NCBI GenBank assembly: GCA_015146655.1
Contig: VKHL01000064.1
Location: forward strand, 94,216-158,215
Length of the DNA: 64,000 nt
From: Ochromonas danica
Taxonomy: Eukaryota > Sar > Chrysophyceae > Chromulinales > Chromulinaceae
Reading direction: 5' to 3'
Shown: positions 2,936-49,757 of the stretch, piece after piece
Layout: the number at the start of each line of letters is the position of its first letter
Numbering within the stretch: position 1 is the stretch's first letter
Position numbers and translations under genes: made by a program
Notes under the pieces: model-generated
The model's input: only the letters and a program-made list of their open reading frames with translations
The model's database searches: none
What the model was told of the DNA's origin: nothing

Positions 2936-4445
2936 ATGCGAAGTTTTCAGTTTCTATGTCTGTTATTGGGAGGATGGTGTCTCTGCTATTCCCCTCTCTT
3001 CTCTCTGTCACCTTCCTCATGCTGTCAGGCATGGCGTCATAATCATATTCCAAATCAGAGGAGAGGGTCACTATCCTCTAGGAACCAACTACTTGGAACC
3101 ATCCACCAAGGCATGAGGACAACCACTATCTCAATTCCTATAACTAGTACAGCATTCCTACCAGTTTCGAATAGAATGAATGCTCTCTATGCTGATGCTA
3201 ATAGATCACCCGAAGTGGATATGGACAGCAATAGTCAAAGCGGACAATCTTTCACATCCCCACCAATTCCTTTCAATCTTGCCTTTCTTTTACTGAACGG
3301 TGTTGCAGTCTTATGGGGTAGTCAACATGTGGTAATCAAATCAGCTGTGGAGTCATTTCCTGCCACTTCTCTATTAAACTTTTGGCGCTTTTCTTTATCT
3401 TCTCTTCTATTTGCCTATCCAGCACTCTCAGCTCTTCTTCTTAAGGCCAATAGTGGAGACTCCAAATCCAACAAAAATGAACTTCTTCTAGCTGGAGCAG
3501 AGTTAGGACTATATACATTTCTTGGATTTGCTTTCCAAGCAATTGGTTTGGAAACAACAACAGCTTCTCGAAGTGCTTTCTTATTATATCTAAATGTCAA
3601 GATTGTTCCTTTTCTAGCTGCTGCATTGTTCTCAAAGAAGATTCCTGGAAGTACTTGGTTATCAGCATTGATGGCGTTTAGTGGAACCTGCTTGTTGTCC
3701 ACTGATGGAGGACCTATTAACGTGGGTGATGCTTGGTGTATTGTAGCTGCTGTTGCATCTGCATTGTTTATTTTAAGATTAGAATCATTCGCTTCAAAGT
3801 TTGATGCAGCACAATTGAATGGGATATCCTTTTTAACGGGTAGGGAAGAACCAATCGTTGACTATTCTCGTGGTTATAAAGTTCTTGATGATGTTAACAG
3901 TTGCTGGGCTATGTGGAGCATGGGTTGTATGCGACCTTTACTCTGGCAATCTTTCTTCCTCTGAGGTACTAGTTTTCCCCACGTTTACAACATTCTGACA
4001 TATTTTATCCTCGATGATGATGAACATTAGATTCTGGAGCCTTTGCTGAAAAGTCCACTATCTATTGTATATTTGGGATGGATTACTACAGCACTATGCA
4101 ACTTTCTGCAGGTCTAATTTCTATTTAATACAACGTACTTTTTAATGTTCTATTTTTTAAGAACTAATGTTCCACCATTTATAGACGATTGGCCAAAGAT
4201 CAATTCCCGCAGAGAAGGCAGCAATCATTTATTCTATGGATCCTGTCTATGGCGGTTAGATTCTTGCAATTTCTTTCATTTTCATGTTGAGGAATTTTAT
4301 TTGATGCTCTGACTGTTGCTCATTAGCCGTATTCTCTCGCTTAGTGTTGGGTGAAGAATTGGGAATGCAAGGGCTAATAGGAGCTGGTCTAATTATGCTA
4401 GGGGTATGGGTTAGCAATCGTGCAGTCAAAATAGAGGAGAAGTAA
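2936..4445 (+). CDS. EamA-type (DMT superfamily) membrane transporter, probably plastid-directed
   Basis: Five exons by splice consensus: 2936-3839, 3901-3965, 4031-4111, 4185-4254 and 4327-4445; 412 residues. The core from about residue 110 is an EamA domain with many hydrophobic helices: AVLWGSQHVVIKSA near the start, then TTTASRSAFLLYLNVKIVP, and in the last exons AIIYSMDPVYGAVFSRLVLGEELG followed by a final helix. This is the two-repeat, ten-helix architecture of drug/metabolite transporters. The N-terminus is uncertain: starting at 2936 gives a hydrophobic leader; a later ATG at 3114 gives ITSTAFLPVS, reminiscent of ochrophyte transit signals. The substrate cannot be told. The first intron (61 nt) contains no in-frame stop, so retention would extend the frame only to 3964. 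It converges on the RUS gene that ends at 4619. Confidence 0.85.
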
Positions 4446-6849: not shown

Positions 6850-7558
6850 AGGGTAGCTTGATGACGCGGGGTAGTCTGGGGGTCTTCCAAGTGGGTGGAG
6901 TCTTCCTCGGTGTGTTCCCCTGAAACAAAATAGATAGAGAAGTGGGAGGAACAATAAGTTCCCACGAGAGACAAAGCCTTGATCAGTCAGTCAGTCTCTC
7001 CCTCACCAGACAGACCGATCCATTCGTACTATGGTGCGGAAGGGTCGCATCTAAACAAGAAGAACAATATAAGAAAGAGCTACAGTAGTCCCTCGCTGAA
7101 AGACAGTGGTTCTCTCAGACCTGCAGTAGCTTGGAAGCTACCCACTCGCTGTATGTAGTGCTGTGGTATATAGACACACTTCACTTCTTCCATACAGCAG
7201 ATATAGTGAACACACTAATTATAACAGATGTAGTCTAGTGAAGGTTGGTAGAGAATGGGAGAGAAGATCTAGTCTAGTCTAATGAGGATCTTAATAAAGA
7301 TGTCGTACTATGGCTAGTTATTGAAGAATAGCTATTACTACTACTAGTAGTATGAGATAGTGTGTTAGTGTCTGCGTGTGTGTGTGTGCTACTATATTTA
7401 GATCACTAGCACTGAGTCAAGGAGATAGCTTTGCAAAAGAGAATACCATTAGCTCTGTTACACCACCCACCATAACAACATCATTATCATTATCACTATA
7501 CACCCTCTCCTCCTCCTCCTCCTCCACCACCACCATCATAGAGTCTACAACTACCACC
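6850..7558. other. intergenic between RUS promoter and YceD-like gene
   Basis: No gene recognised. Contains ACTACTAGTAG-type repeats and a short TG run near 7374-7388. It is the upstream flank of the RUS gene and the downstream flank of the YceD-like gene. Confidence 0.5.
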
Positions 7559-8134
7559 CTATAACTCCATAGCAAGATATTGTGAAGCAATCTCTCCAAT
7601 ATCAATATTACCTTGACTATCCACTTCTTCATCACAATCATGTTCTACCTCTTCCTCCTCCTCCCCCTCCCCCTCTCCTCCTCCTCTACCATTATACACT
7701 GTTGAATCAAACTTTACTTTAATCACCTCATCTTCTTGAATCATCTCAGCTGACATATGTGCTTCAATAGTTCCTTCTATAAACAAGGTAGTACGCTGTA
7801 AGTCTTGCCATCCCACAGTGACATTAGCAGAGAAGTGAGACAAGCCTGAGAGGTCTAGGCGATGGGCTAGAGCCTGGCGTTCTGACTCTTTAGCTAGAAT
7901 ACGACAGAGAACAGGTCGTTTTAAAGGGATTTGAGCAATGTTAAGAGGTCGAGAGAATTCTGGTTTGGGTAGGTTGGAGGAGGAGGAGGAGGAGGAGGAC
8001 TTCTTGGCTAGCAAGGTAGTGGTAGTGGAAGTCAAGGGGTACCTGCTATGAGAAGAGAAGGCAATCCATGAATTAATAGGAGGTAGTAGCAAGCAAAGTA
8101 ATAAGAGAGGGAGAACAAGACCAGAGTATTGCAT
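7559..8134 (-). CDS. YceD/DUF177-like protein, plastid-targeted (23S rRNA accumulation)
   Basis: Single exon of 191 residues from the ATG at 8134; an in-frame ATG at 8167 would add 11 residues, but the second gives the better signal peptide. The order is a hydrophobic leader (LVLPLLLLCLLLPP), then INSWIAFSS, a phenylalanine context like ochrophyte plastid signals, a poly-Ser stretch, and the YceD core: RPLNIAQIPLKRPVLCRI, then ALAHRLDLSGLSHFSANVTV. The YceD end motif DIGEIASQYLAMEL closes the protein. Bacterial YceD and its plastid homologues are needed for large-subunit rRNA accumulation. An acidic low-complexity insert (EGEGEEEEEVE) interrupts the second half, and the usual extension after the final motif is absent. 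It is head-to-head with the dynein light chain gene, 196 bp apart. Confidence 0.8.
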   Translation of the reverse strand: MQYSGLVLPLLLLCLLLPPINSWIAFSSHSRYPLTSTTTTLLAKKSSSSSSSSNLPKPEFSRPLNIAQIPLKRPVLCRILAKESERQALAHRLDLSGLSHFSANVTVGWQDLQRTTLFIEGTIEAHMSAEMIQEDEVIKVKFDSTVYNGRGGGEGEGEEEEEVEHDCDEEVDSQGNIDIGEIASQYLAMEL

Positions 8135-33528: not shown

Positions 33529-36500
33529 ATGAGCAGGACAATAATGATGTTCTCAAGGAAGAATACTTGGTTGATCTTCATTCTATTCTGGTCATTGATA
33601 GTCTTCTTATCATTGAATCTAGGCGATTCTGAGAGATTAGGGAAGAACACAATGATGGGATCATCATCTTCATTGAAAAAGCGTTTAGAAGAACATGAGT
33701 ACTCAATTTTCTCCTTGTATTCAGAAGGAGGAATGGGTAATGATCAACAGCAACAACAGGCTAATTCACTAGCAAAAGAAAGAGAACAACTCTATGAAGC
33801 TTATAACCTTCTTCATACTTTAGCACAGGTAGTAATCGCCTTTTCTTTGATTATACTGAGTCTATGATTATCTTACGATCTATTTGACTGGGTGGTGAAT
33901 GAAATAGGACTTTCATAAACCATTTGATGCCCCTGCAGTCATTGTTGTTGGTCATCAGACCAGTGGCAAGAGTGCCCTCATTGAAGCCTTGATGGGCTTC
34001 CAATTCAACCAGGTAAAGCTTTCTTCAAATAGAGTGTCAAATAATTCCTTCTTTCTCTAATTTGGTGTGATGTGCGGTTGTTTAGGTTGGTGGAGGAACG
34101 AAAACTCGTCGCCCTATTGCCCTGCGAATGCAGTATAATCCCAACTGCCTCGCTCCACTTTGCTTCCTTACCTTAGAGAATGGTAAGGAAGAGCAACGAT
34201 CTATGACCGAAATCCAGGCCTATATTGAAGCCGAGAATAAAAGACTGGAGCGAGATCCAACGCGTTCTTTCGATCCTCGTGAGATTAATATCCGCATGGA
34301 GTACAAGTATTGTCCCAATATGATAGTCATTGATACTCCAGGGATGATCCATCCTCCTAAAGGCAAGCAGCTTTCTCCTCAACAGCGAGCATTACAGCAA
34401 GCAGCTAAAGAGGCCGAAGCTCTTGTGTTGGCGAAGATCAAGTGCCCTGATTACATCATTCTTTGTGTTGAAGACACGACCGATTGGAAGCATAGTACAA
34501 CTCGAAACGTTGTCATGCAGGTAGATCCACAACTTACTCGTACAGTATTGGTCACAACCAAGTTAGACACGAAGTTACCGCAGTTCTCTGAAGCTGAGGA
34601 TATCGAGGACTTTCTCATTGCCCCAACAATCAGAGCTTTCTTCTCTCAGATCCTTGGTGGACCTTTCTTCACAACTGTTCCCTCCGGTAGAGTTGGTAAT
34701 AGCCGTGAATTTGATACCAATGAAGCATTTGTCCAGTCATTGAAGAAGTGTGAGAGACGTGATCGATCATTTATTCTAAATAAGCTCGGGGCTCTTAGAG
34801 GAAAGAAGGCATTGCCTACTGTGGGTATTTCGCGTCTTCGAGCATTTTTAGAAGCTCGCATTGAGGATTCATATCGTCGCAATGTCGCCAAGATTGTACC
34901 CATCCTGCAAACTGAGCTTCGCCTAACAGAGTCTAAGCTTCAGCGTGTGGAAGAAGAGTTGCAAGCCTTGTCCATTGATCGTTTGAAAGAAAGTGCAAAT
35001 CTTTATCGCGAGAAGTTTGCCAAAGAACTCTCAAATGTTATTCAAGGTACTATCCGAGCATCCCCAGAAGAGTTTGGAGAAACCTTGGAGATGGAAGTGA
35101 TGAAAGGAGGCAGCTTTATTCAGCAGGACATGCAAAACTCTGATGCATATCAGCACATTCTGTCTGCGGAAGTTGGAAACCATGTTCATAAACTCTTTGG
35201 TGGTGCTCAATATCACCGTGCTTTGAAAGAGTTTACAATTGCTGTTCGACATGCTAAGAGTCCTTCAGTGAGCGAAAATGAAATCGCCAACGCTGCAGGC
35301 ATGGCAGACACTCACAATGGTGTCAATTTCATGAGAGCTGCTTGTGTCATCGCCATGGAAAAAGCGCAATTATCTTTCGAACCCATGCTCGAGGCTCTCC
35401 GCCATCGCACCGAACATATTATGAAGCGCTTGTATCCTATCATTGCAAAGTTGGTCCACATGAGAGGCAACTCTTTCAGCAATCGTGAATCGATGAGCTC
35501 CGTCCACAGTCAGCTTTCCTTGTCTTTTCAAGATCTTCTAGAGAAAATCTACTATCGCTTTGTGGAGCATCAATTGGAGAGTACGATTCAAAAATGCAAA
35601 GATGATCTTTATGGAATGACCAAGTTTGTCACTTGGGACATAGAGGACAAGTCCGGCGCTTCTACGCTCTATCGTTTGCTACCAACTCCAAAGAAAATGG
35701 TTGAAATATATCAAATGGCGGTGGAAAACAAGAAGCAGAAATACTTGACTCCGTACGGCGAAGGGGAGGAAGAGGATGATGAGGTATACGGCGACCATGA
35801 AGAGACCCATTCTTCTTCATCTGGTCCTGCGAATAAAGTCCTGGAGGAGTGGAATCGAGCAAATAAGCACAACAAGCCTAAGGCGATCAAAGTTACTCCA
35901 TCGGGGGCAAATAAGAAAGGCGATAACAACAAGAAGCAGCCAAGTAGTCCAGCCACCAATAATAACAATAACCAACTTACCGTCTCGCCGGTATCTGGTG
36001 AGGCTATGGAAGAAGATGCTGAACTCGGCGATTATTATAGAGTTATGCAGCTGACGGAAGAGATGCTTTCTGGATCTTCGGCATCTCGCACATCAGCATT
36101 GGTCACCTCGTTGGTGCAGTATATTATCAGGTAAAATCACACACGCCCTTTAGTGAAGTCAATGATCATTACGTATATGAGCATCATTATTATTATGTGT
36201 TGTGGAGATCGTTGTCATGTCCTGTTATGTCATGGTTGTTCGATGATGACTGAGTTATCATGCACCACTCTGAAGTTTTCGATGTGGAGAACTCACTCAC
36301 ACCTAAATGAAATTGGCTGAGAACAACGATGATGACATATATGACTGATTGCTTAATATATGTTATGATGATATTGTTGTTATAATTGGTCGATGAAGAC
36401 TGAGTTCATGCACCACTCTGAAGTTATCGATGTGGAGAATTCACTCATTCCCACCAGAATCTTGACTGATGACCAAATTATATACTATATATCATATTAT

Positions 36501-37552
36501 GGTGATAATGTTGTTGTGATTGTTGTTATAATTGGTCGATGAAGACTGAGTTCATGCACCACTCTGAAGTTATCGATGTGGAGAATTCACTCATTCCCAC
36601 CAGAATCTTGACTGATGACCATTTTTATATACATCATAATAACTATTGACTGATAATCTTGAACCCATTTCTAACTTTCTTGATTGCCTTTGTTTTCTGT
36701 ATTTTAGCTCCTGGCGCAATCACTTTGCACGGACCACGGCAATGAAGTTCAACTGTTTCTTCTTGATGCCGTTCTTGGACGAGTTTCCTGTATACTTGGT
36801 AAGCGATCACACTACGTTGTTGCTCAGAATTATTGCTCATCTATGATTTTATTAATTAGCGCAATGAACTTGATCGTGCGTATTCAAATGGTATGGCAGA
36901 AGTGTTCGATATTGCCGAATCTCGTCGATCGTTGCAAATGCGACGCACTGAGTTGCTTGCAGAGTGTGAAGCCAATAGCAAGTTGCAGAAGAGGTTCGAT
37001 ACAATTGCTGCTCAACTTAGCAAGAAAATTCAGGTCAATAAAGACCAGAACGCCAATGACAATAATAATGGAAGTGATGATTCTGATCATGGTAGTGGAA
37101 GAGGTGGCGGGGCAGATGGTGGAAGTGGCTCAAGCGGTCGAGGAGGATTTTTCGACGATGAGGAATATGACGAAGAACAGGCTTATATATTTGCTCCTCC
37201 AACCGAGAATTATGATGATAATGCTTTTATCGATCCTTCTCGTGTCAATTCTTCTGGTCCTTCTAGTTCTTCCGCATCACCCTCTCAATCTTCTAACAAT
37301 ATCAAGCAAACTCGCCGGAGAGGTTCGAACTTTCCAACAAGTTCTGATGAGGGAATGGACGATATTGAAGCTGATATTAAGTTAAGGCGACCTGCTCCTA
37401 GGTTAGTTAAACGGTTGGTTCGACGAAATTCAGCCGCCAAAAATAGCCAGCAGCAACCTACAGGAAGTTCTACAACTTCCCCTGCCTCTAGTGGGAAGAA
37501 GTCTTCTCCAGCTGCCAGCAAGAAGACAACTGGTACTTCTACCAGGAAGTAA
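33529..37552 (+). CDS. DRP5B: DRP5B/ARC5-type dynamin, plastid division GTPase
   Basis: Five exons: 33529-33828, 33908-34012, 34086-36130, 36708-36798 and 36860-37552; 1077 residues. G1 is GHQTSGKS (115-122), followed by ALMGFQFNQVGGGTKTRRPI, the switch region diagnostic of ARC5/DRP5B; G3 is DTPG (218-221) and G4 is TKLD. The stalk carries GGAQYHRALKEF, ACVIAMEKAQLSFEPML and WRNHFARTTAMKFNCFFLMP, all typical of ARC5. In plants and red algae this protein constricts the outer plastid envelope. Unlike plant ARC5, residues ~13-31 form a hydrophobic helix (NTWLIFILFWSLIVFLSL), a possible membrane anchor or signal. The ~200-residue tail is acidic then Ser/Lys-rich; no PH domain is visible. Intron 3 (577 nt) holds the block shared with the RPA1 gene. 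Confidence 0.92.
36217..36621 (+). repeat. ~405-bp intronic block shared with an RPA1 intron (copy 1)
   Basis: It lies in intron 3 of the dynamin gene. It begins ATGTCCTGTTATGTCATGG and ends ACTGATGACCA. Inside are two nearly identical units starting ATTGGTCGATGAAGACTGAG (36385 and 36531, period 146) and a weaker third at about 36235. The reverse complement lies at 42402-42813 with only a few differences (e.g. an 8-nt insertion near GACATA). Confidence 0.95.
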
Positions 37553-38215
37553 TCACCTCGAAATGAAGCGTAATCTGTGTTACGTGTGATAATGATTGCT
37601 TTTGGTATTAAGAAGTCAATAGACTGCTAGCTAGCCCGTATATATCTGTCAAACGAGGGGAAGAATATATTTTCAACCAATGACCTGGTCAAATATATGC
37701 TGCCCCTTATCAATCCAATTATCTCAGCCCTCCCTTCGTGGGCATATGCCTATCGATGATGTGTTGAGTGTTGAATGGTAATGCCGACTGGAGAGGTGTG
37801 ATGAATGCGCGAGGTTGATCGTTAGAAAGAGATCGACGAGGTTGAGGGCGGAGAAAGTCGCTGAGAGGTGCTGAAGGGTGTCTCTTGTGTATATAATATA
37901 TATATGACTTCTTGTATATATATTTAGTTGTGGTCAGAGCAGTATCCCGTATCTGAGCCTCCTTTTTCATTCACACTTGTATCCTGATGTACTGTAGTAG
38001 TGTTTTAACGTCATCAGCCCTGTGTGTCCAACTTACCGCACACATATATACAGTGAGGTATATATTATTTATAGTGTAACTTAAACTCAATGGTGAAATG
38101 ATTTCCACATGTCTAGTCAGAATTGACAGCATCTGGTATTATACTTCTTAAGTTATTCATGTCTTCCTTCTCTCTCTCTCTCTATGGCCCTACCTACATG
38201 TTGAGGTTTTGATTA
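37553..38215. other. spacer between converging dynamin and RPA1 genes
   Basis: No gene. A TATATA-rich stretch at 37895-37925 and a (CT)n run at 38170-38184 are the only notable parts. Confidence 0.5.
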
Positions 38216-41200
38216 CTAAGCATCCATGACATGCAGATCAAAATCAAAGGACACATTGTTCTTGCGTACGACCGAGTCGATTAGCTTGTCCTGTTCTTCC
38301 CTCTTTGTTTTATCCCCCACAAGAGGGATCATCACTTCAAACGCTCCTGTGCCCCCACGACAGACCGATCCAGTCACAATACGAGCACTGGGTGACATCA
38401 TATTGTCAGGAATATTCTCTTGTGCTGCCTTGGTAAGGAAGGTGCAAGTCGTCTCAAAGCTCATTTGCAGCAATGGAGAAGGACATTTCACCATACCCAT
38501 ACGATTCATTGGAGTGAACTCACCATGACGAGTCATGAAATCTCCAATGAGTGAAAGATGTCTTGGATTGACATCGATACCATAGACAGCGAAGACAGCT
38601 TGAATTTCACTCACAATACTTAATCTTGCTGCCTCAACACCATAATGTAACAATACCTGGTTGATATCATTACATTGAATGGCATTGTAATTGACCAATG
38701 TCTCAGGTAAGGCCCAGATGGCTTCGAAGTTGACACCTTCAGATTGGACAGCCAGTCCACCAGGAGTGTTGGCATCTTCGATAGGATGTGCTCGTACAAT
38801 GTTCTTGGTAGCACGAACCATGGTATTTCCAGCAGCTTTTTCTGCTAATTGAGCCATCAAGAGACGACGACTAGAAGATGGGTATTGTAGAACAACCTCA
38901 ACCCATCCTTCCACTTCGTTATAAGACAAGGACTTGTTATCATTGTCCACAATAACAGCACAGCTGCTGGGAAGAGAAAATGACAATCTCTTAGCAACCG
39001 AGTCCTTAGGATCTTTCTTCTTGGATGATGCTTTCTTCGAGATCGCTTCCATATCCTCGTCATCAACCTCAACATCATCAACTCCTTCGATTTCATCCTT
39101 GTCAGCATTATTGTCAGTATCTTCTTCTTCATCGCTATCATCTTCATGAGCATTGACACCATAACCAGTGGGTGCTCGTAATGCCTTTCCGTCTTCATCA
39201 TCGTTATCGTTGTCACTATCACTTGATTCACTGGCCTCGCTATCACTATCGTGACCACTATCATCATTGTCTTTATCCGTTGCATCAACGACATCCTCAT
39301 CCACGTTGACTTCTTCTCTACCCTCATCGTCGTCATCATCATCATCATCTTCAGAAGAACTCTTCTTCCGTCCATTCTCTTGGCCAGGCTTGACAGCTGA
39401 ACGGAAGGCTTTCAAAGCATCATTCTTACCCGCAGTGCTTTCTCCAGCACGTCGTTGTTCCAGCTTAATAAGATAGTCCAACTTATTTAAGAATGCTCTC
39501 TTCACAGTGGCAACAATGGTATCAAAGACAACTCCAAAGGAATGTTCAATTTGCTTCACTGCTTCAAAATGTAATCGAATACGATATCTTCGTTCCCATC
39601 GACTTAATGGATTACTACGAGTAAGGCTTTCCCCAACTTCTACACCTCCACTATGGGAGAGTAAAGTGGCTAAGGGTAGACAAGATAGCTTTCTTGCTAA
39701 ACTCTTAGCTGCTTCAGGAGTTCTTCCTGGAACTAATGGGATTAACATTGTTGGTGTCTTCAAAGCTTTCGACGCGGTCATAATAATCTCACGTAGACGT
39801 GGAATACCTAACGTCACATTAGCACCACCATGTCCTGCTAAATGGAAAGTATTTAATGTCATCTGTGTGGAAGGTTCACCAACTGATTGAGCAGCAACAC
39901 AACCAACAGATTCACCAGGACAAGCTAATGATCGCATGAACTTCACCCACAATAAAAGTTCAAAGGCATCTTTCGCCACAGTTTGTAAACTACCTTGTTC
40001 TGTGATAACCCCGTCAGGATTCTCTTTAGCATAAGTTTCAATAGCCGCTTGGATACGTTCACTACATGCTCCCACAGTACTTCCTAAGGATAACTTACTT
40101 TGAGCAGTATCTTGAGGTAAAGCAAGTTTAAATAATGTCAATGCAAGTCGTTGATGATGATTACCCGTGGTCTCTCCTGCTAGATTATGAGTGGGTTGAG
40201 TATAGACTTGTAAAGGAACCTTCTTCTCTGTCATATGATCTGACAAATAGCGAATATCAACAGACATCTTATGCTTTGATTCATGAGAACGCACTTTCGT
40301 CACTTCTACTGCATGCCATCCAGAGAGAAGGTTATCACGTGACCATTCTTGGTTGGGATCTTTCTTACGACGAGCAAGAAGAACCATCTTCTTATCCATT
40401 TGATCAAGTGTTAATGGTAGGCTTAACTTTGCTCGTCTTATCATTTCATGATGGCTTGCTGCATTATGATAAGACAGACCTTGATCGAAATAACCATCAT
40501 GTAAAGAGTATTTGAATGTCAAGGCTTGATTGTTACGAGCTAAGAAGAGCATCTGATTAGCTTTGCCTCCTAACATACCCGCTGCAACAGGATCTAATCC
40601 ATCTTCACCATACAAGAATTGAATCACATTTCCTCCACTATCTCTCACTGTGAAATCATATCCAACTGCTAACTCTTCTAAATGCTTCATTAAACAACGT
40701 TGCAGATAACCTGAACGAGATGTCTTCACCGCAGTATCGACTAAACCTTCACGTCCAGCCATACAATGGAAATAGTATTCTTGTGGCTTCACACCTGTTA
40801 AGAATCGATCACGAACAAATCCTCCAGCTCGAGCAGATCCATCATAAGGTTTGAAAGAAGGTAATGTCTTTCCTGAGATCATAATAGGTACACGCATACC
40901 TTCTAAGGCTTGTTGACCTAAGAAACAACTGATTTGAGATTGATTCACAGCTGAACCTTTGGCTCCAGTTAACACCATCATAGAGAAATGATTGGATAAG
41001 AAAGGAACTTGTAATCCATTAGGAAGACAAGCTTTGATCACTTGACTGGCTGACTGATTGATAATACCTTGCATAGCACTGTCAAGCTTACTCTTTCCAT
41101 TGAGTAATCCTTCACTTGTGAGATAGCGAGCAATCTTAGCAGCTTGTAATCGTTCACGATGTCCTGGACCATGACTATGAGAATGACTCTCTGAAGGTCC

Positions 41201-44200
41201 TTTGCTTTGTACATGAAGGGCTAAGAAAGCTTCAAGTCCTTTCCAAGTTTCTTCTTGAACAGCTTCAAGTAAATCTCGTCGTTCTTGATCAGCTTGACGA
41301 GTTAAGACCAAGTCAGAGAGACCGCAAGAATGTCCAGCACCTTGGAGATAATAGGTAAACAACCGACCAAAGGCATTTAATAATCGACCTGCTAGTTCAG
41401 CACCATAGAGTTCATAGACAGCATGAACTAATCCAAGAGAAACGTTACCAATAGCATTCTTATCCAAGACACCAGAGAGTAATGCACCTTGACGAATGAT
41501 TACTTCATGTTCATTCTGTTCTGCACCAAAGGCAGTAGGAGGAGTACGTGCCTTGCTATCCAAGTTTAATGGTGGCAAAGGTGGACGACAAAGATGACTT
41601 AACAAAGCAGTAATAACTTGTTTACCAGTCCATAATGGCGTAGGTTTCCAAATGGTAGGAGGTGGTAGACGAACTTCATCATGAGGTGAGATGATCTCTG
41701 TACCAGACAGACCTGAAATAGCGATGTAGACTAATTGCTGGAAGGTTGCACGGTCTAAGAAAGAGTCTTTACAAGTCAGCTTCACAGCAGAAGCAACATG
41801 ATCTTGAATCAAACCTCTCAGAGGATTACCACTTGTAGGGACGATATACTGATTGTCAGTATTGCAGATATTATATGCTTCAGCACGTGCTAACTCACTC
41901 TATTCAATCAACCACCCATATCAATGAGAAATGAATACCAAGTCTTAAAGAGGTATATAGACTATTTACCTGGACAAAGTGACAATTCATTTCATCACCA
42001 TCGAAATCAGCATTGTAGGTGTTACAATTGGCATAGTTCATACGAAGTGTTTGTTCTTTGACATGTTTCAAGACACGAGCTTTGTGAGCCATGATACCAG
42101 GCTTGTGTAAGGTAGGTTGACGATTGACAAGCAAGACGTCACCGTCAACAAGATGACGATAGACCTTAATGCCAGGATCAGAGAGAAGAAGCTTTGCTTT
42201 GCCAGCACGTTCCATAGCAGACAACTTGTCCAACTTGATAATACGACCATCAGATAACTCCATGGAATTAGCACCTAGACAAGAATGCATCCCTCGTTAG
42301 CATTAGTGTTCGAACATAAAATAACATAACATAGATCACAGACAAGTAGGGCAGGAGGTATAGTATAGTTGTTGTTATGATATGATATACAGTATATAAT
42401 TTGGTCATCAGTCAAGATTCTGGTGGGAATGAGTGAATTCTCCACATCGATAACTTCAGAGTGGTGCATGAACTCAGTCTTCATCGACCAATTATAACAA
42501 CAATCACAACAACATTATCACCATAATATGATATATAGTATATAATTTGGTCATCAGTCAAGATTCTGGTGGGAATGAGTGAATTCTCCACATCGATAAC
42601 TTCAGAGTGGTGCATGAACTCAGTCTTCATCGACCAATTATAACAACAATATCATCATAACATATATTAAGCAATCAGTCATATACTACGTATGTCATCA
42701 TCGTTGTTCTCAGCCAATTTCATTTAGGTGTGAGTGAGTTCTCCACATCGAAAAATTCAGAGTGGTGCATGATAACTCAGTCATCATCGAACAACCATGA
42801 CATAACAGGACATAACACACTGCAACATAACCATATCCACCATACTAAAACAACAACAATCATTACCTGGATATTGATCAGGTCCTCTTTCGACTAAAGT
42901 TCTCAAATACTTGACATTCCAACTATTCACTGGAGTAGGATAAGTCAGATTCTTGGCAAAGTGTACAGGAATACCAATCTCATTACTTCCCATATAAGGA
43001 TCAGGAGAGATGACGGAACGACAACAATAGTTGACACGTTTACCCATCATATGTCTTCGGAAAAGACCTTCTTTACGCTCTAATAATTGACGAATACCAA
43101 TGGGTGCATTCTGACTACCTAAAGGATTAGGATCCTTCGCAGAGTCCATATAGCAATTGACAGCATTTTGAAGATCAATCCAAGTGGAAATGAAACGAGA
43201 GACTTGTTTCCCATCTCCTGTCGTGGTAGTGTTCATCACACTCTCTTCTGGACCACTTCCATTCGTTCCAGTTGTAGTACCCACCTCAGCTTGAAGTAAA
43301 CGAATACGGAAGTTAGTCTCTAAGATCTTCTTCAAATGAACATTTTGTGGATGCTCACTAAGACGATCACCAACTTTACCCATAGGACGGAAACGATTAG
43401 GTGGTACTAAGACAACACGCATAAAGAAGATCTTGTATGCCTCAGCATGATGTAAATCAATCTCCCGTGCTGATTTACCAAGAGAACGACACCAGATAAA
43501 GTTTAAGATCTCTCCATTCTCTTGCCATAATAACTTAATCTGTGCTTCCACTTCTAATGGTGGGAGATATTTATCAGCTGCAGGTGTTGATTTAACAGCA
43601 TTTGCTAATCGACCAGCTTGAAGATGATTATCATCATCGTCATCATCATCTTCTTCATTATTATATTGCTCATCGGCAAGATCTTCTTCATCGGTATCTT
43701 CATCTTCAATCTTTCCAGCTTGTTTAGCAATAGCTTTCAAGGCAGACTACAGTACACACACACCATATACACTTCATTAATACCCCGACTACAACAACAA
43801 CAATAGAGAAGAGAGAGTGTGTGTAACAGGGCATTCATTACCTTCTGACGAAGAGTAGAACTCATCGACTTTCTCTGTCTTAATGGAATAGCTTTCATAA
43901 AGATCTTCGCAGCTCCATCTTTACGAATAGGAGGAGAAAATGCAGAACAATTCTCACAACGTTTGGTTGCTAACGTTAGCTTTTGAAACTCTTCAATAAC
44001 ATTTCTTTGAAGAGATTTAATTAAGAGATCAGGTTTATTACGAATAGTCTTAGATGAAGCAAATCGTTTAAAACGTGCTTCAATATCATGTAACTTCTTA
44101 TCAACACTGTTTTCTTCAGTGGAATGACCAGTTATACCATCTCCTTTATCTAATTGAGATGGAGCAACAAGATCAAAGAGAGAGTTAGCACCATCAATAT

Positions 44201-46821: not shown

Positions 46822-49441
46822 TTATGCAATCATCATACTATCATCATCATCATTACTATTATTATTGTCATTGTTGTTATTACCAAGTAACTGAAGAGAG
46901 AGGAAGAGATCTTGTGCCTGTGTCTCTAACGCAGTTAAAGTACGTACTGTACCAAGTCTACGCTCTGTCATATAGACCTTCTGCTCACTCTGCACTACCT
47001 CGGTAGCGCTACTCTCCCCATAAGTTACATTTAGACCTTTAAGCTCCTTCGGGAGGTCTAAGGTATCACTATCTAATGCTAATATAGGTCCTTGTAACTT
47101 CTTCTCAATCGCTGCTATGAGTTGTCCTTCATCATACCAGATTGTACATCCTCCTTCCTTCTTAAGTTTACGATTGTAACAGACTTGTACACCTCGACCA
47201 TGTCCTTTACAACTATGATACCATACCTTCTCTTTTACATCTGAAGATACAATAGAGATTGCTAATCCCATACGATCAGCACGACCTACACGTCCTATAC
47301 GATGAATGTAATTCTGTGGTTCATCAGGTAATGTGATGTTAATGACATAAGGTAGAGAGTCTATATCAATACCACGTGCTGCTACATCTGTACAGATTAA
47401 GATACGAATCTCTCCATCTTTAAACTGTTGTAAGGATCGTCTACGATCTTCCATAGACATTAGACCTGCCATAGTAGCGGAAGTGTATTTCTCATGGAGC
47501 AGTTTACCATTAGATTGAGATTGGAAGAATCGTTGTAGATTGATACAATCTAGATTAGTACGACAGAATATCATCACTTGAGGCATCTACACAGACACAT
47601 ACATACACACATAGACACACACACACATACACACACACACACACATACACACACACACACACACATACACACACACACACATACACACACACACAGACAC
47701 ACACACACACACATACACACACACACACATACACACACACACACACACAAAGCATGAAACAACAACAAGGAGTTAGAGAAGAGCATGCACTACGGGATAG
47801 CACGAAAGATCTGTTAGTGTAGGGTAGAGTACTTACCTTGTAATGATCAATGAGAGCCTTAGCAATAAATGGTTTAATCATTTTAATCCATTGTGATTGT
47901 TGACAACTTAATCGATCAGGACCTTCTCTAGTTAACTCTTGTTCAACATGTACTTCATCTGTCATGATACTACTACTAGTAGTAGTACTACTATGAGATG
48001 CTACTACCCATCGTCTATAAGACTCTTCACAAGGCGTTAGACGATAGAGTACATGATGTACACTATGTGGTATTACAGTCTCTTGTCCTTTTAAATCAAT
48101 CCATATAGGATTAACACAAATCATATCAGCTAATGATCTTATAGCAGGATCATGTAATGTAGCAGAGAAGAAACATACTTGTAAACGATGTATACCAATA
48201 CCTCCTATAGGACAATGAGAGAAGACTTGTTTAACACCTTGTAAACTCTCTCCTTCCATCATACTATCCGCTTCATCAAGTATAAAGAAACGTATAGCTG
48301 AGAGATCTAATTGATGAGTCTTAATCACTTCACCTAACTTACCTAATGTCCCTATTACTATATCTACACCTTCTTCTAAGGCTTTCTTTATAGTATGATG
48401 ACTATTATTATTATCTCCTATTAATAATAAGGTACGTATAGAGGGATTAGTTAAATAACGACTTAGATCCATAAAGGTACGATACATTTGTTCTGCTAAA
48501 TCACGTGTTGGTTCAATAATGATAGCTAAAGGTTTACGGTGACCTGGAATCCGGTATGATTCCATGGAATCGGCTTGAAATAAATGCATTGGACTAGCTT
48601 GATGGAATGGTTGATATCCAGATGGTAGATAACGTATAGGAAGTTGTCCTAAGTTAATCTCTGCTTTACTACCCGATAAGGAGAGGGTAGGGAAGAAGAC
48701 CATTCCATGGAACTCCCGTGGAATCGTATAGGCAATATCATAGACTTTCCCATTTTTAGAGAAGGTAATAGTAGAATGATCAAAGTCAATAGCACATCCA
48801 ATAATATCACCTTCTCCATAGGTTTCCCCATATTTCTCATAATTACCCTGTGAGGATTTAAATCCCTTCCCACCGTAACCAAAGCCCAACGGATCTTTCC
48901 CAAGATCTAAACTAGCTAATCGGGTAGACCATCCAATACGAGCATTACCATTACTATAGAAGTGAACTTCATAGTAGTATCTACCCGCGTTGACCCCATG
49001 GGTAGTTCGTATACCTAGCCAACGGTCACTTCCCTCAACGGAACAAATGCGACGAGGACCGTTGGGAGTGTTAGGGTGTAGGAGGAGGAGGTCAGGGTCT
49101 CGATCTAAGTCATTGAGTTCAATGACCACTGGCCCACTCTCACTACTACCACTACTACCACTACCTCCTGCACTACTAGAGGTAGTGGTGGTGGTAGGAG
49201 GAGGAGGAGGAGAAGAAGAAGCAGAAGGGGTCATTTTTCGTTCATAGACCACTTGTAAGATAGGTAAAGCAAAGGCAGCACTTTTCCCAGAGCCTGTCTC
49301 TGCTGCTCCCATGACATCTCCTCCTCCTAGAATAAGAGGAATAGCTTCATCTTGGATGTCAGTGGGTAGAGACCATCCTTGATCTTCAATAGCTTGGAGT
49401 AGCTCAGGTAATAAGCCAAGATCAGCAAATCCTCCTGACAT
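46822..49441 (-). CDS. DDX1: DEAD-box RNA helicase DDX1 with SPRY insert
   Basis: Two exons, 49441-47837 and 47586-46822; 789 residues (human DDX1 has 740). The start at 49441 (SGGFADLGLLPELLQAIED) fits the DDX1 N-terminus; an ATG at 49486 would add 15 residues. Motifs: Q-motif region LPTDIQDEAIPLILGG, motif I AETGSGKS, then the SPRY domain unique to DDX1 (GSDRWLGIRTTHGVNAGRYY, NARIGWSTRL, GDIIGCAIDFDHSTITFSKN) inserted before motif Ia (EPTRDLAEQ), DEAD (LDEADSMM), SAT, and in exon 2 CTDVAARGID and YIHRIGRVGRADR. DDX1 works in the tRNA ligase complex and other RNA processing. The intron (250 nt) carries a (TG)n run that ends at the 3' splice site. A Ser/Thr/Gly/Pro low-complexity insert lies at ~80-120. 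Confidence 0.95.
47595..47748. repeat. (CA)n/(CATA) microsatellite in the DDX1 intron
   Basis: About 155 nt of CACACA with TA and GA interruptions; (TG)n on the coding strand, leading into TGTGTAG at the acceptor. Confidence 0.95.
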
Positions 49442-49757
49442 TCTTTCTGATGATGATATGATATGATTGATTGATTGACCACTCAAGACAGGGGAATGTT
49501 GTTAAGTTAATATTTACCACGCAAATAACAATATTGGAATAAAAAAACGAGCTGTTCAACGCGGAATGCGTTTCTCTCTCTCTTCTCTCTCCGCTGTGAT
49601 TGCAAAAAGCGAGCTTTTCAACAAGAACGCGTTGTTTCTCTCTCCCTCACAACAGCATGATGAGCAGTCAGTCACAGTCAGTGTATGAGAAAGAAGACAA
49701 TAACAACAACAACAAATTACCATAAATAAAATAAATTAATTAATACCTACCTACCTA
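49442..49757. promoter_or_regulatory. shared promoter region of DDX1 and the DUF726 gene
   Basis: 316 bp between two divergent starts. Holds TTGTTAAGTTAATATTTACC at 49499-49518 (the GTTAA-type word) and two similar segments, AACGCGGAATGCGTTTCTCTC (49558-49578) and AACGCGTTGTTTCTCTC (49627-49643). Confidence 0.5.

Follow-up and report, generated by a model that had tools for sequence, protein, structure and literature searches.

A candidate array of box C/D small nucleolar RNA genes in introns of two neighbouring genes of Ochromonas danica

How does nearly the same sequence come to lie, in the same sense, within introns of two different genes? We asked this of a stretch of 64,000 nucleotides from the chrysophyte alga Ochromonas danica (contig VKHL01000064.1, positions 94,216 to 158,215; "the window"). 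Intron 3 of a dynamin-related (ARC5-like) gene and intron 4 of RPA1, which encodes the largest subunit of RNA polymerase I, share a block of 408 aligned nucleotides (nt). A reading of the sequence without database searches (the sequence-only reading) had proposed an introner-like element, a reverse-spliced intron, or gene conversion between introns. We think instead, with a probability of roughly 87%, that the block is an array of three box C/D small nucleolar RNA (snoRNA) genes that was recently copied, by a local inverted duplication, between the introns of the two neighbouring genes. Most likely, these are ordinary intronic snoRNAs that were spread by a known type of event, trans-duplication (PMC2653536; PMC3412847).

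The duplicated block and its two host introns

The protein encoded by the dynamin-related gene has a Dynamin_N domain, and its homologue in Ectocarpus is named ARC5. RPA1 was identified by sequence match to subunits of RNA polymerase I with structures in the PDB. Both introns are removed in public predicted proteins. P0121, an entry labelled Ochromonas danica, joins YIIS to SWR across dynamin intron 3 and is 100% identical to the 681-amino-acid exon. P0001 joins YPG to ANSM across RPA1 intron 4, and the large exon matches at 100%. The sequence and these joins confirm the intron lengths that had been proposed (Table 1).

The two copies of the block differ by 2 substitutions (at 36216 and 36275) and one 7-nt indel, and they include an identical run of 284 nt (36338-36621 and 42402-42685). 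This identity is far above chance. The block contains a tandem period of 146 nt. The two genes are convergent, and the copies are inverted and ~6 kb apart; each copy reads in the sense of its host. On all of these points (a near-identical block of ~405 base pairs, 146-bp tandem units, and the same sense relative to both hosts) the sequence-only reading was correct. Near-identity might also come from an assembly duplication, but the two substitutions, the 7-nt indel, the four distinct flanks within intact genes, and the public protein models for both genes make this barely credible. It is also highly improbable that transcripts reading through from one gene into the other fold into a hairpin at the inverted repeat and so regulate both genes by double-stranded RNA. 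The genes do converge, and one strand holds 284 perfectly complementary bases, but the normal pre-mRNAs of both genes hold the same sequence rather than complementary ones, and a hairpin would leave the snoRNA features described below unexplained.

We then consider whether the block behaves like an introner. Genome searches found the block at two places in the 31.2-Mb genome, where repeat counts are lower bounds. This genome-wide count, which the sequence-only reading had called for, revealed no dispersed family. Since an introner would predict one, the result speaks against this explanation. Furthermore, neither copy touches a splice site: the dynamin copy begins 82 nt past the 5' splice site and ends 87 nt short of the 3' splice site, and for the RPA1 copy the distances are 49 and 128 nt. 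The introns differ in phase (2 and 1), the outer intron sequences differ, and the repeats resemble snoRNA genes. An introner-like element or a reverse-spliced intron would account for the presence of the block in two introns in the same sense, but given this evidence we give the idea almost no weight. Introner-like elements do place near-identical sequence in introns of different genes; here, by contrast, two copies were found, no splice sites are carried, and snoRNA-like units explain the sequence.

Table 1. Positions of the introns, the duplicated block, the snoRNA-like units and a second inverted duplication. Positions are in the window, except in the last row; on the minus strand, boxes are given in the direction of reading.
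Feature	Position	Strand	Box C	Guide	Box D'	Box D	RF00300 (bits)	Remarks
Dynamin-related (ARC5-like) gene, intron 3	36131..36707	+						577 nt, phase 2, GT..AG; hosts array copy 1
RPA1, intron 4	42275..42866	-						592 nt, phase 1; hosts array copy 2
Duplicated block, dynamin copy	36213..36620	+						408 nt aligned to the RPA1 copy
Duplicated block, RPA1 copy	42403..42817	-						repeat period extends to ~42377
Unit 1, dynamin	36235..36327	+	ATGATGA 36243-36249	36258-36269	CTGA 36270-36273	CTGA 36317-36320	35.5	E 6.5e-6 for the intron; C'-like TCGATGT 36279-36285
Unit 2, dynamin	36386..36476	+	ATGAAGA 36393-36399	36406-36417	36418-36421	36466-36469	30.9	
Unit 3, dynamin	36532..36622	+	ATGAAGA 36539-36545	36552-36563	36564-36567	36612-36615	30.9	
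Unit 1, RPA1	42703..42795	-	ATGATGA 42787-42781	42772-42761	42760-42757	42713-42710	37.3	top scored place in the genome
Unit 2, RPA1	42547..42637	-	ATGAAGA 42630-42624	42617-42606	42605-42602	42557-42554	30.9	
Unit 3, RPA1	42401..42491	-	ATGAAGA 42484-42478	42471-42460	42459-42456	42411-42408	30.9	
Inverted duplication on contig C89	L128:4625-5704 and L129:4165-5301	inverted						SNORD33-like intron

The snoRNA-like units and their predicted target

Each repeat unit is laid out like a box C/D snoRNA gene, with a terminal stem, box C, a guide, box D', a C'-like motif, and box D. Box D (CTGA) is present in all six units, and terminal stems of 6-7 pairs, read from the ends of the units, would bring boxes C and D together. 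Box C matches the consensus RUGAUGA exactly in unit 1 of both introns (2/6 units). The sequence-only reading had described a third, degenerate unit; that unit is the one with the exact box C. The terminal stem is TTGTTC/GAACAA in unit 1 and TTGGTC/GACCAA in units 2 and 3, which is a two-sided change from a U-A to a G-C pair. (In dynamin unit 3, the outermost pair of the stem is lost.) Scanning the window for the consensus, with at most one mismatch in box C and at least four Watson-Crick pairs in the stem, gave 14 candidates. Six of these have an exact box C or six Watson-Crick pairs: all but one of the snoRNA-like units, and a further place. This lone candidate, at 1201-1305, has one mismatch in box C, a CTGA, and a stem of 7 pairs.

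In a permissive search of Rfam, RF00300 (snoZ221/snoR21b) was the best match to all six units, over the full length of the model. Across the 31.2-Mb genome, the search for RF00300 scored 51 places out of 4165 first-look candidates. The six units are the top six (E = 2.6e-5 to 1.6e-3), and the next place falls to 22 bits. Two pattern searches also single them out. The guide with box D', allowing up to one mismatch, occurs at six places in the genome, which are the six units (a backward control gave one forward and one reverse place). A second core pattern recovered the same six and, with three mismatches, one further place (none for the control). The dynamin intron also has weaker matches to RF00133, RF00533, and RF01201. 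A search for the SNORD24 family gave weak places only (best E = 0.34).

The guide suggests what these snoRNAs might do. The 12 nt before box D', TCATGCACCACT, are identical in all six units. For one unit of each type, we computed the pairing to 18S ribosomal RNA (rRNA), and TCATGCACCACT pairs at 12/12 positions (10 Watson-Crick and 2 G-U) with GGTGGTGCATGG, unbroken and adjoining box D'. Because the alga's own conserved 18S motif was not found in the assembly, this target was read from proxies, namely eukaryotic 18S sequences on two IMG/VR contigs (L100:3632-4543 and L101:4059-4305), both confirmed by RF01960. Shuffled 12-mers paired equally well in 11/5000 cases on L100 and 5/5000 on L101. 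(Both contigs are filed as viral yet carry eukaryotic 18S rRNA, so they may not be viral. Also, judging from searches for 5.8S rRNA and the 18S motif, ribosomal DNA seems to be missing from the assembly.)

The nucleotide that a box C/D snoRNA methylates is the fifth from box D'. By this rule, the predicted methylation site would be the fifth base of GGTGG, a G with a U two positions to its 5' side. This G is predicted to be equivalent to Gm1271 of yeast and Gm1328 of humans. Published pairs of sites (Um1269/Gm1271, Um1326/Gm1328, Um1264/Gm1266, and Um1270/Gm1272) have the same spacing between the G and a methylated U upstream of it (PMC8817022). The site table of that paper assigns Gm1266 to CD37 of Dictyostelium, Gm1271 to snR40 of yeast, Gm1328 to humans, and Gm1272 to AtsnoR21. 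Another paper gives the same correspondence, with yeast numbers that are two lower (PMC3511168), and a third places the site in helix 34 of 18S rRNA (PMC5464676).

Several observations weigh against the snoRNA assignment or its predicted target. First, no unit reaches the gathering score of RF00300 (44 bits), and a scan of the window against Rfam at gathering scores found nothing. In the permissive scan of the whole window, five microRNA families, in repeat-rich stretches, outscore RF00300, so the Rfam score by itself is not our argument. RF00300 also had matches, at E up to 10, in 13 of 14 prokaryotic control genomes, with none above the cut-off. Second, box C is off by one position (AUGAAGA) in units 2 and 3, or 4/6 copies, and the three dynamin units fold no better than shuffled sequences do (z = -1.4, -0.8, and -0.4). 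Third, the comparison of the pairing with shuffles of whole units is weaker than that with shuffled guides (9/60, 2/60, 7/60, and 1/60), and neither the 18S motif nor the 5.8S rRNA of the alga itself was found in the assembly. Finally, no target turned up in the proxies, which span only part of 18S rRNA, for the guide adjacent to box D; this guide is not the same in unit 1 as in units 2 and 3.

As for the scores, the U14 snoRNAs of this genome are also under their family's cut-off (55.4 and 51.6 bits vs. 64), so the curated cut-offs seem to be too strict here. Together with RF00300 and RF00133, which are likewise below theirs, this suggests that snoRNAs of the chrysophyte lineage go undetected at Rfam cut-offs. 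Since the gathering score of RF00300 was not reached, we propose a guide function of this kind and not formal membership in the family. A literature search on chrysophytes and snoRNAs gave no paper on chrysophyte snoRNA genes, as judged by titles and the openings of abstracts. These predictions come with a target, boxes, and hosts for snoRNA genes of a chrysophyte, and they replace the proposed introner with an ordinary explanation that can be checked.

The closest known systems are snR40, U32 (SNORD32), AtsnoR21, and CD37 of Dictyostelium (RF00300). In these, a CUGA box follows the guide CATGCACCACT, and the predicted target is the same G of 18S rRNA (PMC8817022; PMC3511168). Unlike them, the units described here score below the Rfam gathering cut-off, and they occur as three tandem copies per intron, in two introns. 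Intronic clusters in plants and green algae are similar in that several box C/D snoRNAs share an intron and need polycistronic processing (as in Ostreococcus; PMC7671301), but here a single snoRNA is present in three copies, and the host belongs to the stramenopiles.

How the array may have reached a second intron

Intron-encoded snoRNAs are produced from the host's transcript, which accounts for the sense orientation of both copies. Transcription of the host gene would include the array in the pre-mRNA. Once the intron is spliced out, nucleases would cut and trim three snoRNAs of about 91-93 nt, with box C/D proteins presumably shielding their ends at the terminal stem and the C/D motif. The guide adjacent to box D' could then pair with 18S rRNA in helix 34, where fibrillarin would methylate the fifth base from box D'. 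The sequence-only reading was right that two intronic copies in sense need explaining, but it overlooked the snoRNA-like units, and transcription of the host gene would explain the orientation without insertion machinery. Only a copy that is intronic and in sense would stay expressed and spare the protein, so no special machinery is needed, and selection among survivors may be enough to yield this pattern.

In our preferred account, one of the arrays would have been copied as DNA by a local inverted duplication. Identity is as high in the spacers as in the snoRNA units, which implies that the DNA itself was copied, and not merely that the snoRNAs were conserved. Tandem snoRNA copies within an intron, and copies in another host gene, have been described for snoRNA cis- and trans-duplication (PMC2653536; PMC3412847). 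What differs here is that a whole array of three units, with its spacers, would have been copied in inverted orientation into an adjacent, convergent gene. If so, this is a young example of an intronic snoRNA array that changed its host gene over a short distance, in inverted orientation, and with its sense kept.

Alternatively, the introns may have held a pair of arrays for a long time, with the centre homogenised by interlocus gene conversion while the outer sequence drifted. The equal identity of spacers and units and the 284 identical nt would fit this as well, and the flanks provide a further hint. The sequence-only reading held that the outer ~100-170 bp of the introns differ, which they do, except for a weak likeness on the right side: the best local score of the right flanks was reached by 0/1000 dinucleotide shuffles. 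This would be expected if homology once reached further. However, the left flanks show no similarity (123/1000), and alignments anchored at the edges of the block are not significant (0.786 of shuffles on the left and 0.075 on the right, the latter for a 40-nt alignment). Also, the flanks are rich in AT, and the tests covered 11 pairs. The left flank of the dynamin copy resembles the spacers (4 and 8 of 1000 shuffles), maybe because of shared base composition. A single recent duplication is a simpler explanation of the same data, and another inverted duplication in this genome, described below, has a similar rate of substitution (5/1080 vs. 2/408). We consider the older pair of arrays to be unlikely, though gene conversion, which had been suggested from the sequence, could have been a later homogenising step.

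A third route is retroposition, in which an RNA precursor of the snoRNAs was inserted into the second intron. Mobility of snoRNAs between introns has been published (PMC3511168). But three units and their spacers were copied as one, the copy is merely 6 kb away and inverted, and by eye neither end shows an A-tail. We consider a snoRNA retroposon very unlikely. Inspection of the two introns by eye alone showed no target-site duplication.

If the array was duplicated locally, then perhaps it was copied from the RPA1 intron to the dynamin intron. The period of the RPA1 array runs ~24 nt past the edge of the block (a 135-nt repeat in RPA1 vs. 110 nt in the dynamin intron). The homologues of the host proteins give a similar lean. 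Homologues share the intron site of RPA1: among the 119 that are listed, homology starts exactly at this site in 10 (after unrelated residues) and slightly inside it in 9, and the site is uncovered in 68. In contrast, 97 of the 99 dynamin homologues that cover the site of intron 3 read through it, and 2 (P0122 and P0123) stop exactly there; the site is uncovered in another 20, some of similar identity. P0122 and P0123 are the two best-scoring dynamin matches other than the protein itself (75% and 66% identity). Two observations run counter to this. Of the RPA1 homologues, 32, mostly more distant and either annotated or possibly transcript-derived, read across the site, and three dynamin homologues at 65-66% identity (P0134, P0125, and P0124) read through theirs. 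A caveat for dynamin is that some of the proteins that read through may be transcript-derived. Because P0122 and P0123 are not both clearly closer than several homologues that read through, the direction is only a lean.

We also searched the DNA of relatives. Among genome contigs, the best 80 of 273 relatives all have prokaryotic (archaeal) titles, at 28-38% identity, and viral contigs gave 7 matches at 31-33% identity. Two protein homologues, P0003 (RPA1, 64% identical) and P0149 (dynamin, 71%), carry the public label "archaeon" (EON65), which apparently reflects a mislabelled metagenome bin.

Other local duplications in the genome

The window is not the only place where DNA with a snoRNA was recently duplicated nearby. 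In a genome search for RF00133 (SNORD33), two equal matches (31.6 bits, with a cut-off of 44) lie in inverted orientation ~15 kb apart on contig C89. A third place elsewhere scored 24.6 bits, and 1 of 14 control genomes also matched. The two copies on C89 align over 1080 nt; they differ by 5 mismatches (~0.5% substitutions, as in the window) and by three indels that together amount to 57 nt. In one copy, the SNORD33-like snoRNA lies within an intron, in sense to a gene for an M16 peptidase (Peptidase_M16 and M16_C domains). The other copy is a truncated inverted duplicate; it spans the final bases of one exon, the intron itself, and the exon that follows. By our reading, the SNORD33-like guide would point at the U that precedes the predicted G site by two bases.

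To gauge local repeats more broadly, we compared 106.9 kb of this genome with itself and counted repeats that were 100 bases or longer and at least 90% identical. There were 3 inverted and 3 direct repeats, in a sample that is biased, as the stretches were chosen for a snoRNA or pattern match and include the window itself. It is conceivable that this genome moves introns, or parts of introns, that bear snoRNAs by frequent local inverted duplication followed by gene conversion, and that the arrays spread between neighbouring genes in this way and may have filled or enlarged a young intron. The idea of a young or enlarged dynamin intron comes from the 97 of 99 homologues that read through its site. 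We regard this broader scenario as doubtful.

The self-comparison and the snoRNA searches turned up some other repeats. A pair of U14 (SNORD14) genes on contig C67 is a direct tandem, 371 nt apart and apparently intergenic (L121:3488-3597 and 3859-3968). The same stretch has an identical direct repeat of 300 nt, ~2.5 kb apart (L121:5242-5541 and 7702-8001). Near the SNORD33-like copy there is a perfect inverted repeat of 334 nt, 717 nt apart (L128:5864-6197 and 6915-7248), between two neighbouring reading frames whose peptide sequence is the same. Lastly, in the window, 46822-49501 encodes a DEAD-box helicase that has a SPRY domain; its open reading frame extends into a long CA repeat (47589-47749).

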